Of a stretch of DNA of 18,816 nt, positions 3 to 16,585 are shown piece by piece. This DNA is from Opitutaceae bacterium (GTDB taxonomy: Bacteria; Verrucomicrobiota; Verrucomicrobiia; Opitutales; Opitutaceae), in contig JAISTY010000070.1 in NCBI GenBank assembly GCA_031272375.1, positions 1-18,816 of the forward strand, given 5' to 3'. Both the position numbers and the translations under genes were made by a program. The notes under the pieces were generated by a model. It searched no databases, was not told the origin of the DNA, and was given only the letters and a program-made list of their open reading frames with translations. Every line of letters begins with the position of its first letter. The first letter of the stretch is position 1.

Positions 3-2312
<2,310 letters not shown>

Positions 2313-2331: not shown

Positions 2332-2394
2332 TCTTCAGCTTTCAGTTTTCAGCTTCCCATCAATCGTAATTCGTAAATCGTCCTTCGCAAATTC
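2332..2394 (+). repeat. 7-bp periodic tract upstream of the rodZ-like start
   Basis: Nine consecutive 7-bp units can be laid out without gaps. The first three (from 2332) are variants of NTTTCAG. The later ones are variants of TAATTCG, for example TAATTCG at 2367 and TAAATCG at 2374. The tract is AT-rich in an otherwise very GC-rich sequence and ends 12 bp before the ATG at 2407. A related tract precedes the sialidase-like gene on the minus strand. Function is unknown; a promoter/leader element or a slippage-prone microsatellite are the options. Confidence 0.75.
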
Positions 2395-2406
2395 CACCCA
2401 CCCACC

Positions 2407-3204
2407 ATGCAAAACATCGGCGAACGTCTCGAGGAAGCCCGCAAACGCAAAAGCCTCTCCATCCGCGATGCCGCGGAAGCCACAAAAATCCGCGGCGAAT
2501 ACCTCAACAACTTTGAAGCCAATAAGTTCAACATAGGCCTCCCGGAGGTCTTTGTCCGCGGCTTCCTCCGCTGCTACGCCGCCCTCCTCGGCCTCCCCGG
2601 CGACACAATCGTCGCCGACTACAAGGCCCTCGGCGTCCACACCGACGAAAAAAAACCCCGCCACGGCGCCCGCGAGGTCTATGGCCGCATGGAACTCCCC
2701 GCGCAAACCGCCCCGTCCGGCAAAGACACCCCCGACCCGCGACAAGCCGCCGCCCCCACCAACCCCAACGCCACCTTCCGCCCCACCCTCCCCCTCAACC
2801 TCCCCGCCAACCCCGCCACCCTCGCCCGCGTCGCGCTCGCCGCCGCCGCCGCCCTCCTCCTCGCCCTCCTCGTCATCTGGGGCGTCCGCGCCCTCACCTC
2901 CTCCGGCAACACCCCCGGCGTCCTCTGGGAACACCCCGCCGACGGCGAACCCGCCATCGGCCTCCTCGCCGAAACCAACGCCGAGGTCGAGGTCACCGAC
3001 GCCTCCGGCAACCTCCTCTACAAAGGCCTCCTCCCCGCCGGCGAACTCCGCCCCGTCCCGCGCCGCGGCAACCTCACCGTCGCCTGCGAAACCCCCGAAA
3101 GCATCCGCGTCGAAATTGACGGAAACCGCCTCCAGCTGAAAAACCCCGCCGACGGCGCCTTCCTCAAACGCGCCACCATCGCCGCCCCCGCGAACCCGAA
3201 GTAA
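2407..3204 (+). CDS. RodZ-like membrane-anchored helix-turn-helix protein
   Basis: 265 residues. Residues 1-75 form an XRE/HTH_25-type helix-turn-helix (opening MQNIGERLEEARKRKSLSI, with the typical YLNNFEANKF and VRGFLRCYAALL stretches), as in RodZ, which links MreB to the envelope and sets rod shape. A Pro/Thr-rich linker follows at about 95-138, one membrane helix at about 140-162 (Ala/Leu-rich), and a periplasmic domain at about 172-258 that looks like the small beta-rich domain of RodZ relatives. The ATG is preceded by ACCCACCCACC and no Shine-Dalgarno site. The next gene starts 16 bp after the stop. Location after ftsK fits a division/shape role, but no mreB is visible here, so the exact role is inferred from architecture. 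Confidence 0.82.
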   Translation: MQNIGERLEEARKRKSLSIRDAAEATKIRGEYLNNFEANKFNIGLPEVFVRGFLRCYAALLGLPGDTIVADYKALGVHTDEKKPRHGAREVYGRMELPAQTAPSGKDTPDPRQAAAPTNPNATFRPTLPLNLPANPATLARVALAAAAALLLALLVIWGVRALTSSGNTPGVLWEHPADGEPAIGLLAETNAEVEVTDASGNLLYKGLLPAGELRPVPRRGNLTVACETPESIRVEIDGNRLQLKNPADGAFLKRATIAAPANPK

Positions 3205-9896: not shown

Positions 9897-10364
9897 ATGG
9901 CATCCTTTAACAAAGTCATCCTCATCGGCAACCTGACACGCGAACCGGAGACCCGCACCACCCCGAAGGGCACCGCCATCTGCACCTTCGGCCTCGCCGT
10001 GAACCGCAAATACAAGGACGAATCCGGCGGCCTCCGCGAGGAGGTCAACTTCTTCGACATCGAGGCCTGGGGCAAAACCGCCGAGACCATCAGCAAATAC
10101 ATGCGCAAGGGCAGCCCCCTCTTCATCGAGGGCCGCCTCAAATACGACTCCTGGGAGGATAAAAACACCAACCAGAAACGCAGCAGGGTGAAAATCATCG
10201 TCGAAACCGCCCAGTTCATCGGCTCACCGCGCGGCGACTCCGCCCCAGCCCCCGCCGACAACGGCGACGACGACCGCTCCGTCCCACCGCCCCGCGCCCC
10301 GCGCCCAGCCCCCGCCGCCCCGCCACCCGCGCAGGAGAACATTGACGAGGACGTCCCCTTCTGA
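9897..10364 (+). CDS. ssb: Single-stranded DNA-binding protein
   Basis: 155 residues. The OB fold fills residues 1-110 (MASFNKVILIGNLTREPETR, VNFFDIEAWGKTAETISKYM, GSPLFIEGRLKYDSWED). A Pro/Ala/Asp-rich linker follows. The acidic tip ENIDEDVPF ends in the Pro-Phe needed to dock replication and repair partners. Leader is C/A-rich (CAACACAAACTCCCCCA) with no Shine-Dalgarno site. In many genomes rpsR comes next; here rplI follows directly. Confidence 0.96.
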   Translation: MASFNKVILIGNLTREPETRTTPKGTAICTFGLAVNRKYKDESGGLREEVNFFDIEAWGKTAETISKYMRKGSPLFIEGRLKYDSWEDKNTNQKRSRVKIIVETAQFIGSPRGDSAPAPADNGDDDRSVPPPRAPRPAPAAPPPAQENIDEDVPF

Positions 10365-11459: not shown

Positions 11460-11796
11460 GTTATTACACAGAGGTCACAGAGGAGGGGGGGAGGGCACGG
11501 AGATTTTTTTGAACAGAAGATAAGAAGAGGGATGAAGAGGGGCGTGTCCTGCAGCAGGGCACCGCATATTAGCAATTGAGAGTGCGCCGCGGGGCGGCGA
11601 AGAGCGGGGGCGTTAGGGACAGGTTAAAAATGCGCCCTGCCGCGGGGCATCGCGTAAAAACAGAGCCTTCGGGCTTGTTCTTCTTATCTTCTGTTCAACG
11701 GATTGGATACTTTGCGCCCTTTGTGATGTCCTTCGCGACCTTTGTGCTGGAACCATCTGAGGATGGAGGAGGCTGGAGCCGCGCGCGGGGGGGTGG
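11460..11796. other. Gene-free spacer with repeat module A
   Basis: No supported gene. It starts with tandem words of the CACAGAGGTCACAGAGG type (11467-11504). It then holds repeat module A (11511-11714) and ends with words of the CCTTTGTG type, the reversed counterpart of the first family. A 74-residue open frame from 11576 runs through the repeats and has no protein-like features. Confidence 0.7.
11511..11714. repeat. Composite repeat module, copy A (inverted ends, variable core)
   Basis: An 18-bp perfect inverted pair, GAACAGAAGATAAGAAGA (11511-11528) and its complement (11679-11696), encloses 150 bp. The left block 11512-11552 matches copy B (13393-13433) at 40 of 41 positions. The right block 11660-11714 matches 13625-13679 at 51 of 55. 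The core differs in length and holds one GGGACAGGTTAAAAAT (11616-11631). It contains no coding sequence. It looks like a non-autonomous element (REP/MITE-like) or a structured RNA element. Confidence 0.7.
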
Positions 11797-13101
11797 TTAG
11801 TATGCCAAGTCGCGGAAGTTCTTGATGCGGTGGAAGGTAATCAGGTTGCCGTCGTGAGCGTTGAGGGCGTCGGCGTCGCCGCTGCGGGAGAGGATGACAA
11901 GGTCGTCGCCGTCAATGTCCATGGCGGCGTAGTGGCGGGCTTGTTTGGGGGAGGGGCCGATGGCAACGACGGCGGCAAAGCACCAATCAACGAGGTTTTT
12001 GGAGAAGTGGAGGACGAGGCGGTGGCGTTCGTTGACTGGGGTGCCAAAGCGTTCGGGCGGCAGCTTGTCGGCACGGGTCATGGAGTCGGTGGATTGGGAG
12101 CCGAGGAGCCAGTAGAGGCCGGTTTTGGGGTCGTGGGTGATGTGGAAACGCATGTGTCCGCCTGGCATTGGGATATAGAGGATTTTTTTGCCGGATGGGA
12201 CGGTTTCGAGGGAGGGAGTGAGGGAGCCGTCGGGGTTTTCGGTGAATTTGCAGAGGGCGGCGTAATTGGAGGGGGCGCCGCTGGCGCGGAGGAGGACGTG
12301 GAAGGTTTTTTGCTTGGGGTCGAACCAGTAATGGTTGGGGTCGGTGATTTGGGCAATGTTGGCTTCGAGCCAGCCGGGAGGGGCGACGCGGAGGGGCTTT
12401 TTCGGGGTGTGGGAGGGGACGGTTGTGGCGTCGGGGAAGTTCATCGGGAAAAACGGGATGCCGAAGTGGTTGAGTTGCGGCAGGTTGTCGCGGTAGCCGG
12501 GAAGGGCGTCCTTGAAGGGGAGTTCGGATGAAAACGTCCATGCCTCGGGGCGCGTGAGGTCGTCGGTTTCCTTTGCGCGAAGGAGGACGGGGGCGAGGTC
12601 GCCGGGGACGTGGGCGTTGATTTCGCGGGCGGGGGCGCGTTCGAGGACGAGGTAAATGAAGCCGTTGGAACGTAGGTAGTTGGTGGCTGACTGGTGCCAG
12701 TTGGGGAGGGTGGAGAGAGGGACGGGGACGGACCAGGTGTTGCCGTTGTCGGTTGAGCGGGAGATGGCGAGTTTGGAGGAGCCGAGGGCGTAGAGGATGC
12801 CGTTGGCGAGGAAGAGGCGCGCCTGACCGGTGCGGAGGACGGCGCGTTCGGTCCAGGTGAGGCCGTGGTCGTCGGAGGTGAGGTAATGCATGCCGAGGGC
12901 GGCGCCGGTGGTGTTTTTGCGGTCGTGTTTGTTGCTCAAGGCGTAGCCGGCAACGAGGCGTCCGTTGGGGAGGGCGAGGAGGGTGGGGTTGTAGAGGGGG
13001 TTTTTGTCAGGGTGCGCGGAGCGGGCGACAACGACATGGTCTTGGGCGACGGGGCGGATGGGCGCGGCGGGCGCGAGGAGGGCAAGGGTTAGGAGGAACA
13101 T
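11797..13101 (-). CDS. Secreted sialidase-like (BNR/Asp-box) protein
   Basis: 434 residues. The N-terminus MFLLTLALLAPAAPIRPVAQ is a short signal peptide. Two Asp-box motifs (S-x-D-x-G-x-T-W) are visible, SDDHGLTW near residue 76 and STDNGNTW near residue 116. They mark six-bladed beta-propellers of the sialidase superfamily. The opening NPLYNPTLLALPNGRLVAGY is like the first blade of these proteins, but the classical F/Y-R-I-P arginine motif is not seen, so sialic-acid cleavage is not established; another glycan-related activity is as likely. The start codon is next to a 7-bp repeat tract and lacks a Shine-Dalgarno site. It is the only minus-strand gene between rplI and purA, has repeat modules on both sides, and may be a laterally acquired cargo gene. 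Confidence 0.8.
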   Translation of the reverse strand: MFLLTLALLAPAAPIRPVAQDHVVVARSAHPDKNPLYNPTLLALPNGRLVAGYALSNKHDRKNTTGAALGMHYLTSDDHGLTWTERAVLRTGQARLFLANGILYALGSSKLAISRSTDNGNTWSVPVPLSTLPNWHQSATNYLRSNGFIYLVLERAPAREINAHVPGDLAPVLLRAKETDDLTRPEAWTFSSELPFKDALPGYRDNLPQLNHFGIPFFPMNFPDATTVPSHTPKKPLRVAPPGWLEANIAQITDPNHYWFDPKQKTFHVLLRASGAPSNYAALCKFTENPDGSLTPSLETVPSGKKILYIPMPGGHMRFHITHDPKTGLYWLLGSQSTDSMTRADKLPPERFGTPVNERHRLVLHFSKNLVDWCFAAVVAIGPSPKQARHYAAMDIDGDDLVILSRSGDADALNAHDGNLITFHRIKNFRDLAY

Positions 13102-13105
13102 GGCG

Positions 13106-13133
13106 GAAATTAGAAATTAGAATTTAGAAATTC
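13106..13133 (-). repeat. 7-bp tandem tract just before the sialidase-like start
   Basis: Four 7-bp units, two of them identical. On the coding strand they are variants of TAATTTC, ending 4 bases before the ATG (CGCC between). The unit resembles the TAATTCG units before the rodZ-like gene. It replaces any Shine-Dalgarno site. Confidence 0.75.
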
Positions 13134-13238: not shown

Positions 13239-13392
13239 AAAGTTTTTTATCCGCAGATTTCGCAGATTTCCGCAGATCTCCAAAAACACTTAATATCAGA
13301 ATGATTCATCCGTGAAATCCCTGCCTTAAAATCCGGGAAATCCGTGGTTGGTTTGGAAACTTCTGTCTCACACGAAGACGCGAAGGCTTTTT

Positions 13393-13679
13393 AACAGAAG
13401 ATAAGAAGCGGGATGAAGAGGGGCGTGTCCTGCCACGGGAGACCGCAGGGACAGGTTAAAAATGAGAGAGGGGGGATTAACAGCCAAGACGCCAAGGGCG
13501 CCAAGGAGTTGGGGACAGGTTAAAAACAAGGACGGGGCGTGTTAGGGACAGGTTAAAAATTCAGGGGCAGGGCGTGTTAGGGACAGGTTAAAAATTCAGG
13601 GGCATGTTGTTTAACCTCTTACGAACAGAGCCTTCGGGTTTATCCTTCTTATCTTCTGTTCAACGGATTGGACACTTTG
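13393..13679. repeat. Composite repeat module, copy B (inverted ends, expanded core)
   Basis: Same layout and orientation as copy A. The inverted pair is AACAGAAGATAAGAAG (13393-13408) with its complement (13645-13660). The core is 191 bp against 107 bp in copy A. The extra length comes from more GGGACAGGTTAAAAAT units, a 35-bp tandem duplication and a GACGCCAAGGGCGCCAAGG stretch. With copy A it flanks the sialidase-like gene as direct repeats. Confidence 0.7.
13448..13595 (+). repeat. Array of GGGACAGGTTAAAAAT words with a 35-bp tandem duplication
   Basis: The 16-mer starts at 13448, 13512 (last base changed), 13545 and 13580, all in the same direction. A 9-base start of it recurs at 13732 and one full copy is at 11616. 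The units 13536-13570 and 13571-13604 are a near-perfect 35-bp tandem repeat. Spacings of 64, 33 and 35 bp and the lack of unique spacers of equal size rule out CRISPR. Confidence 0.75.

Positions 13680-16508: not shown

Positions 16509-16585
<77 letters not shown>

Follow-up and report, generated by a model that had tools for sequence, protein, structure and literature searches.

The stretch of DNA considered here (the window, 18,816 nucleotides of contig JAISTY010000070.1 from an Opitutaceae bacterium) opens within an ftsK gene, which is separated by a 94-bp spacer from a rodZ-like gene, and it is in this spacer that a 7-bp periodic tract is found at 2332-2394. The features on which the following account depends are these.

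3..2312, plus strand: ftsK, upstream of the spacer, its 5' end cut by the window edge (Pfam PF01580, PF17854, PF09397)
2332..2355, plus strand: TTTCAG-type heptamer block (TCTTCAG CTTTCAG TTTTCAG CTT), lag-7 identity 13/17
2353..2359, plus strand: seam unit CTTCCCA (unit 4), which from its sequence fits neither unit type
2361..2394, plus strand: AATCGTA-type heptamer block (CAATCGTA ATTCGTA AATCGTC CTTCGCA AATTC), lag-7 identity 16/28 over 2360-2394
2395..2406, plus strand: pyrimidine-rich leader before the ATG, read from the sequence as CACCCACCCACC
2407..3204, plus strand: rodZ-like gene with HTH_25 and RodZ_C domains (Pfam PF13413, PF13464)
11571..11600, plus strand: decayed half-element AGCAATTGAGAGTGCG, then a GC-rich stretch resembling a hairpin, one of 18 matches in the source genome at no more than one mismatch
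13106..13132, minus strand: a second heptamer array, GAAATTA x3.9 (Tandem Repeats Finder)

A preliminary description of the tract had placed a run of nine 7-bp units 12 bp before a start codon, and its coordinates, period and distance are right: identity is 31/56 at lag 7 and 28/49 at lag 14, no other lag between 1 and 24 exceeds 0.39, and the tract ends at 2394 with the ATG at 2407. It was also right that the tract is AT-rich in GC-rich surroundings (39.7% GC versus 66.3% for the window) and that the gene downstream is rodZ-like, as the two Pfam domains indicate. When the tract was shuffled 100,000 times under a first-order Markov model, 16 of the shuffles reached a score of 31 at lag 7 (p = 0.00016), and the p value becomes 0.0045 when any lag from 3 to 19 is permitted. 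Within the window the score is equalled by 38 of 18,754 overlapping 63-bp segments, the highest value (34) belonging not to the tract but to a C/G-rich coding stretch near 10,268. The period had further been called strict and the tract a single one with shifting units. Strict says too much: unit 4 and unit 9 (CAAATTC, 2388-2394) lie outside both types, and the change from TTTCAG-type to AATCGTA-type units is really that between two heptamer arrays in a single register. The AATCGTA block appears by its sequence to resemble a decayed right arm of the elements described below, and the exact 19-mer AATCGTAATTCGTAAATCG that it holds at 2362-2380 is common to contig C24 of the source genome and to relatives. 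The sequence of the window spacer contains no left arm, no small hairpin and no partner arm, and its predicted fold is not significant (z -1.24).

Selection at a promoter or ribosome-binding site had been suggested for the tract, which is not the best account of it: a scan of 2250-2450 found no sigma-70-like promoter, and no Shine-Dalgarno sequence could be seen by eye before the rodZ-like ATG. At 2303-2321 the minus strand carries a single terminator-like site, versus 0.5 expected. The ftsK-rodZ spacer was readable at 26 of 30 loci, the source genome included, with four unread; inspection by eye found no AATCGTA or TTTCAG array in the 25 readable relatives, and some of their spacers were seen to carry other inverted repeats. 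Regulation specific to rodZ was ruled against on this ground, and a rodZ-specific role of the tract is probably absent. In 15 of the 26 leaders (loci L132-L159) a CTAACT or TTAACT ends 7-12 bases before the rodZ-like ATG, and it could be the -10-like element of a near-leaderless promoter; the leader in the window is without it.

The source assembly comprises 1.46 Mb in 242 contigs and is 67.6% complete. Period-7 arrays were counted in the window contig and in 40 of the 242 contigs (together 211 kb of readable sequence, nine all-N contigs excluded), contigs C24 and C134 being among the 40 as chosen for having matches. Genes in this and the other samples were called with a home-made codon-usage caller seeded with the window genes, which made 73-79% of the samples coding and gave approximate starts. 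The 38 kb of non-coding DNA held 11 arrays and the 173 kb of coding DNA three; of the 11, seven lay no more than 100 bp from a start (10.1 kb), two no more than 100 bp from a stop (8.5 kb) and two elsewhere. A scan showing period-7 tracts no commoner near starts than elsewhere was to have counted against the earlier reading; this did not come about, the arrays of this genome being denser near starts than in coding DNA, but other such arrays exist beside the tract. Lags of 4, 5, 8, 10, 11, 13 and 14 gave 1, 6, 3, 3, 1, 1 and 7 arrays, respectively, in this non-coding DNA. Twelve regions of the sample, ten of them non-coding, reached the lag-7 score of the tract. Only two of the 11 arrays had a mirrored partner within 200 bp, and no strong inverted repeat (score of at least 16) was present in 37 spacers of this genome.

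The AATCGTA unit together with the ordered 19-mer occurs at three places in the source genome, all with the expected polarity: on C24, 11 bp before a start; in the window; and on C134, immediately behind a stop, where the end of the contig truncates it. Apart from that at 2332-2355, no TTTCAG block was found in this genome. A further family, to which the half-element at 11571-11600 belongs, consists of AACAATT arms, then AGAGTGCG, then a GC-rich hairpin; it has 18 matches in the source genome, where the backward control has none, and one or two in four of the other 99 genomes of the set, about the rate of the backward control (one match in each of ten genomes). Among 15 distinct half-elements viewed in the source genome, a start lay within 150 bp on the arm side in eight and a stop in none. 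On contigs C134, C71, C91, C223, C157 and C159 heptamer arms also sit either no more than about 120 bp from position 1 or at the contig end, which suggests that these repeats break the assembly.

Both unit types of the tract recur beyond the source genome. TTTCAG triplets were found in 11 of 100 genomes of the host family (backward control in one genome) and AATCGTA triplets in 20 of 100 (backward control 0). The ordered 19-mer AATCGTAATTCGTAAATCG, with no more than one mismatch, occurs in 14 of 387 genomes of the phylum, seven of which have a single match and carry no weight, since controls match in four of the 387; genomes G104 and G194, which belong to another family and measure 2-3 Mb, have 199 and 280 matches. 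The copies in these two genomes adjoin GC-rich hairpins inside longer repeated blocks. By eye, variant units follow one another in the same order at different loci and in different genera. When 72,556 plasmids were searched with a 35-nt consensus of the AATCGTA arm, 21 matched at E up to 10 (12 of them at E of 0.02 or less), namely 18 cyanobacterial, two Bacteroides and one Bernardetia plasmid. Two Planktothrix plasmids hold eight arrays by pattern, of which two are inside annotated genes and the other six all share the border polarity. Viral carriage was set aside; IMG/VR contains one exact match to the 19-mer.

In relatives the arrays lie at gene borders and are often paired. Sampling bears on these figures, as the first stretches of G045 and G079 were mostly picked around pattern matches and only an evenly spaced sample of G045, which is poorer, is unbiased. 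In G079 there were 55 non-coding and 17 coding period-7 arrays, with 28 near starts versus 27 near stops, the corresponding figures for the hit-chosen stretches of G045 being 24 versus 26; the arrays thus flank stops as often as starts, which tells against the earlier suggestion of start-linked selection. Many spacers in both genomes open and close with mirrored heptamer arrays. A mirrored partner within 200 bp was present for 30 of 55 arrays in G045 (mostly hit-chosen) and 40 of 55 in G079 (70 of 110 together), and for two of ten in the evenly spaced sample, where 400 kb held just these ten non-coding period-7 arrays and lag 13 gave as many, so that density is uneven and other periods exist besides 7. 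Period-9 runs (CATCTCCCATATCTCCCATGTCTCCCA) lie beside heptamer half-elements at about 1465-1510 and 2480-2520 of locus L221, and 7 is therefore not the sole step in that genome.

Among spacers of 30-220 bp, the only ones screened, inverted repeats scoring at least 16 were present in 37 of 139 in G045 (mostly hit-chosen) and 32 of 150 in G079, and in none after one shuffle of each spacer in the two genomes. Of these 69 repeats 43 are heptameric and 26 are not. The outer edges of the 43 heptameric pairs lie at a median of 5 bp from stops (39/47 within 12 bp) and 23 bp from starts (13/39 within 12 bp), and their borders are start/stop in 25 cases, stop/start in 14, stop/stop in four and start/start in none, start/start spacers making up 27 of 326 overall. 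A single polarity rule, in which each unit family has a main orientation relative to the nearer gene, accounts for 104 of 112 arrays and for 50 of 54 in the AATCGTA family; consistency is defined here by the majority direction in each family, which puts its floor at one half; paired arms are not independent of each other, and 19 of 131 arrays are left out because their family has fewer than three members or a border is missing. The AATCGTA block of the window has the border polarity of its class in relatives, and the TTTCAG block is oriented as on the right side of spacers there. Of 24 distinct TTTCAG arrays of the host family, 10 have an ATG-started open frame that begins no more than 45 bp to their right, and 4 have one that near to their left.

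The structure of a complete element is best seen in the AATCGAA family. Counted by hand with partial copies included, the places that match the G079 copy (locus L108, 5669-5768) number about 45 in G002 and 21 in G050. Forty element places were fetched, of which 37 contain the element; the other three had been chosen for the TTCTTAA family and gave no match. In its usual form the element is about 100 bp long and non-coding, with terminal inverted repeats, and consists of a heptamer arm of 32 bp, the hairpin GGAGC-NNCC-GCTCC, a core of variable sequence, the hairpin CGCGC-GGNA-GCGCG and the arm in mirror image. Of 29 copies, 20 have arms that agree at no fewer than 27 of 32 positions, and in the other nine an arm is truncated or replaced. 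At L251, L252, L257, L266 and L267 the left arm is swapped for another shared sequence (GGCAGACTGTCG...), which gives these copies the look of recombinant half-elements. Four full elements chosen for folding gave z of -7.2 to -9.8. An alignment (A1) of 23 of the 40 fetched places and four others, in which one outer unit is trimmed from most left arms, was used to look for compensatory change. Double changes were found in five of 33 pairs, one of them broken in seven of the 27 sequences, with a covariation term of -0.22, and arms matched their own partner at 26.1 of 32 positions versus 25.5 across copies (permutation p 0.046); neither result was persuasive as evidence of selection on arm pairing.

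At orthologous spacers of relatives, whole elements of about 100 bp are present or absent. In a syntenic region of G002 and G050 (95.6% identical) there are three indels of at least 45 bp, two being elements and one a 2.7-kb difference, and in a syntenic region of G002 and G079 (83.8%) there are four, all elements. Whole elements thus account for six of seven such indels over the two comparisons (five distinct elements), a count that misses one element known from the comparison of orthologous spacers. One element occurs in G002 only, where the spacer measures 191 bp versus 35 and 38 bp in G050 and G079 by our own gene calls, and since it is absent from both others a lineage-specific gain in G002 is the simplest reading. 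No clear target duplication was seen at two G002 junctions, at which the flanks have diverged. Smaller changes also occur, the left arm of the G079 copy being one 7-bp unit shorter than its G002 counterpart. A Y1 transposase was rejected as the explaining gene because it does not discriminate between genomes: Y1_Tnp matches were found in 19 of 20, the exception, G022, having five AATCGTA matches. A RAYT gene of the REPIN kind would be flanked by the same repeats; of four loci flanking Y1 genes, one has a single weak heptamer match and none a small hairpin.

It seems reasonably probable, in the light of these comparisons, that the tract is what is left of one or two heptamer arms belonging to inverted-repeat elements dispersed between genes. 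The period, the families, the pairing, the polarity, the copy number and the presence or absence of whole elements are observed directly in relatives. The complete element there is about 100 bp long: four to five heptamers make up the left arm, then come a small GC-rich hairpin, a short variable core and a second hairpin mirroring the first, and the right arm repeats the left as its reverse complement. These elements are gained and lost whole in short intergenic spaces, usually directly after a stop codon, each unit family being oriented one way relative to the neighbouring gene; an enzyme acting in trans would move them, and copies would then decay by point mutation, by loss of 7-bp units and by loss of an arm. 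Before the rodZ-like gene, right-arm sequence of two families would remain, giving the AT-rich stretch upstream of the coding sequence, and we infer that the window copy arrived as an element and is decayed rather than selected. Unit, polarity and position give good support for placing the AATCGTA block in this class; support is weaker for the TTTCAG block, of which no second copy was found in its genome. It could also be that AT-rich stretches before starts have been co-opted as leaders, and that hairpins after stops protect or end transcripts.

Other explanations have to be weighed against this one. The 7-bp units might have grown in place as a microsatellite by replication slippage and then diverged, with no mobile element involved, and continuous slippage had indeed been proposed for the tract. 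Heptamers prevail among long simple repeats in many bacteria, for which a polymerase-contact explanation has been put forward (cited second-hand in the available parts of PMC4679880 and PMC4692102), the difference between the G079 and G002 copies is a change of one unit, and the window tract has no partner arm. What slippage leaves unexplained is the mirrored pairs, the fixed polarity, the unit order common to loci and genera and the whole-element indels, all of which fit the decayed-element reading, and in the tract itself two different unit types abut; we regard an origin by slippage in place as unlikely.

A selected leader is less likely still. The AT-rich heptamers would here be kept as an unstructured 5' leader or a protein site (e.g. 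for ribosomal protein S1), helping translation to start without a Shine-Dalgarno sequence, and this may be a later use of an element arm. It would accord with the seven-to-two preference of the source-genome arrays for starts over stops, with the nearness of its half-elements to starts and with the translational role suggested for TAACTGA repeats ending just before starts (MacGregor 2015, PMC4679880, in the part available). Against it, the arrays of relatives are equally common at stops and their paired elements lie closest to stops, the unit sequences differ widely, and 25 relatives show by eye no array at the ftsK-rodZ locus. Chance or compositional periodicity, noticed while scanning 18.8 kb, could draw on the modest p value with lags 3 to 19 permitted and on the 1-in-7 chance that two blocks share a register, but it is very improbable, as both blocks match units that recur as family arrays with near-zero backward controls and both stand at the expected place and in the expected orientation.

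Heptanucleotide repeats of cyanobacteria are named STRR and have been described since the 1990s, and small dispersed repeats were reportedly found inside cyanobacterial heptamer arrays in 2008. Like the arrays here they are tandem intergenic heptamers, and 18 of the 21 plasmids matched by the AATCGTA consensus are cyanobacterial; they belong to another phylum, however, and the likeness rests on arrays and polarity and not on the arm-hairpin-arm structure. Tandem 7-bp units lying mainly in non-coding DNA, by which STRR and long simple sequence repeats are recognised, are what is seen in the tract and its genome. The GGGAATC and GGGGA(C/T)T heptamers of Xanthomonas and Nostoc are intergenic with a preference for four units, inverted pairs numbering 70 and 75 in two Xanthomonas genomes; their authors put forward quadruplexes as an explanation and cite no role as established (Rehm et al. 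2015, PMC4692102). Arrays of about four 7-bp units, intergenic and often in inverted pairs, are common to both systems, as is a position near starts on one strand and stops on the other with under-representation between divergent genes (PMC4692102, in part). One-polarity inverted pairs of this type are found in relatives (104/112 arrays; 43 pairs), whereas the window tract shows the polarity only. The units AATCGTA, AATCGAA and TTCTTAA, unlike those of Xanthomonas, have no G-runs and are unable to form the quadruplexes put forward for those repeats, and the TTTCAG and AATCGTA units of the tract contain no run of two or more G and so lack the quadruplex character of the Xanthomonas type. The arrays here, unlike the Xanthomonas repeats as far as the available description goes, are the ends of hairpin-bearing elements of about 100 bp with whole-element gain and loss; most Xanthomonas repeats lie between the same genes in two Xanthomonas species (PMC4692102, in part), in contrast to the turnover seen here.

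The TAACTGA direct repeats of Beggiatoaceae, for which translational control has been suggested, stand just before starts (MacGregor 2015, PMC4679880). Like the tract they are heptamers ending a few bases before a start that has no canonical ribosome-binding site, and they have a single unit type, which stands before starts and is nearly always in direct, forward orientation, one inverted case being reported (PMC4679880). The arrays here have several units, mirrored pairs and positions at stops as well as starts, so the tract, with its other units and a class that also borders stops, does not belong with them. REPINs (Bertels and Rainey 2011, PMC3116915, in part), like BIMEs, are dispersed extragenic inverted pairs of short palindromic units that form a hairpin and are gained as a unit, as are the elements here, and Opitutus terrae is described in the available part of another article as rich in GTAG REPs (PMC3733652). 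Inverted pairs, a hairpin core and many copies characterise the AATCGAA family (G002, G050, G079) and were not seen at the tract. Unlike REPINs and BIMEs, the arms here are heptamer arrays and neither GTAG nor CGTC tags the hairpin foot: in alignment A1 ATTG or the variable core precedes the small hairpins of the AATCGAA element, and the one place where GTAG appears is across the right hairpin's loop. Being short (about 100 bp) and non-coding, with 32-bp arms as terminal inverted repeats, the AATCGAA element shares these characters with MITEs. Open-licence full texts gave no account of such elements in the host family, which is no proof of absence from print. Heptamer pairs at gene borders are already known; what is new here is other sequences, another host group and evidence of gain.

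That bacteria carry more heptamer repeats than expected has been remarked on for years, with no agreed cause. Here several unrelated heptamers share a single architecture, and whole elements are gained and lost in relatives, one gain being assigned to a lineage; both observations weaken explanations by quadruplexes or by translation alone, and the turnover makes the origin of heptamer arrays testable by comparison of close strains. A more speculative proposal, which we hold to be possible but doubtful, is that period-7 inverted border arms form one cross-phylum class of mobile intergenic elements (Verrucomicrobiota, cyanobacteria, Xanthomonas) in which geometry is conserved and sequence is not, with about four 7-bp steps per arm, mirrored and flush with genes, moved by an enzyme that reads the 7-bp step or the hairpin. 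If true, it would replace the quadruplex explanation and account for the prevalence of heptamers among long repeats. A periodic tract before a start in the host family should at any rate be compared with this repeat class before regulation is proposed.

Several other repeats occur in the window. An Rfam scan found nothing besides a tRNA gene on the minus strand at 16512-16585 (RF00005, 68.9 bits). The GAAATTA array at 13106-13132 is separated by 4 bp from the start of the gene at 11797-13101 on the minus strand. A 35-bp tandem repeat x2.8 (GTTAGGGACAGGTTAAAAATTCAGGGGCAGGGCGT) occupies 13508-13604, and a piece of it, GGGACAGGTTAAAAA, recurs in single copies near 11615, 13450 and 13515; the same long spacer holds a period-10 array, ATCCGCAGATTTCGCAGATTTCCGCAGAT, at 13250-13290. 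The sequence AACAGAAGATAAGAAG...GGGATGAAGAGG is found twice (about 11507-11710 and 13385-13665), each time with the mirrored CTTCTTATCTTCTGTTCAACGGATTGGA downstream, and these stretches look like another dispersed inverted-repeat family, present also at locus L090 on a contig of the source genome.
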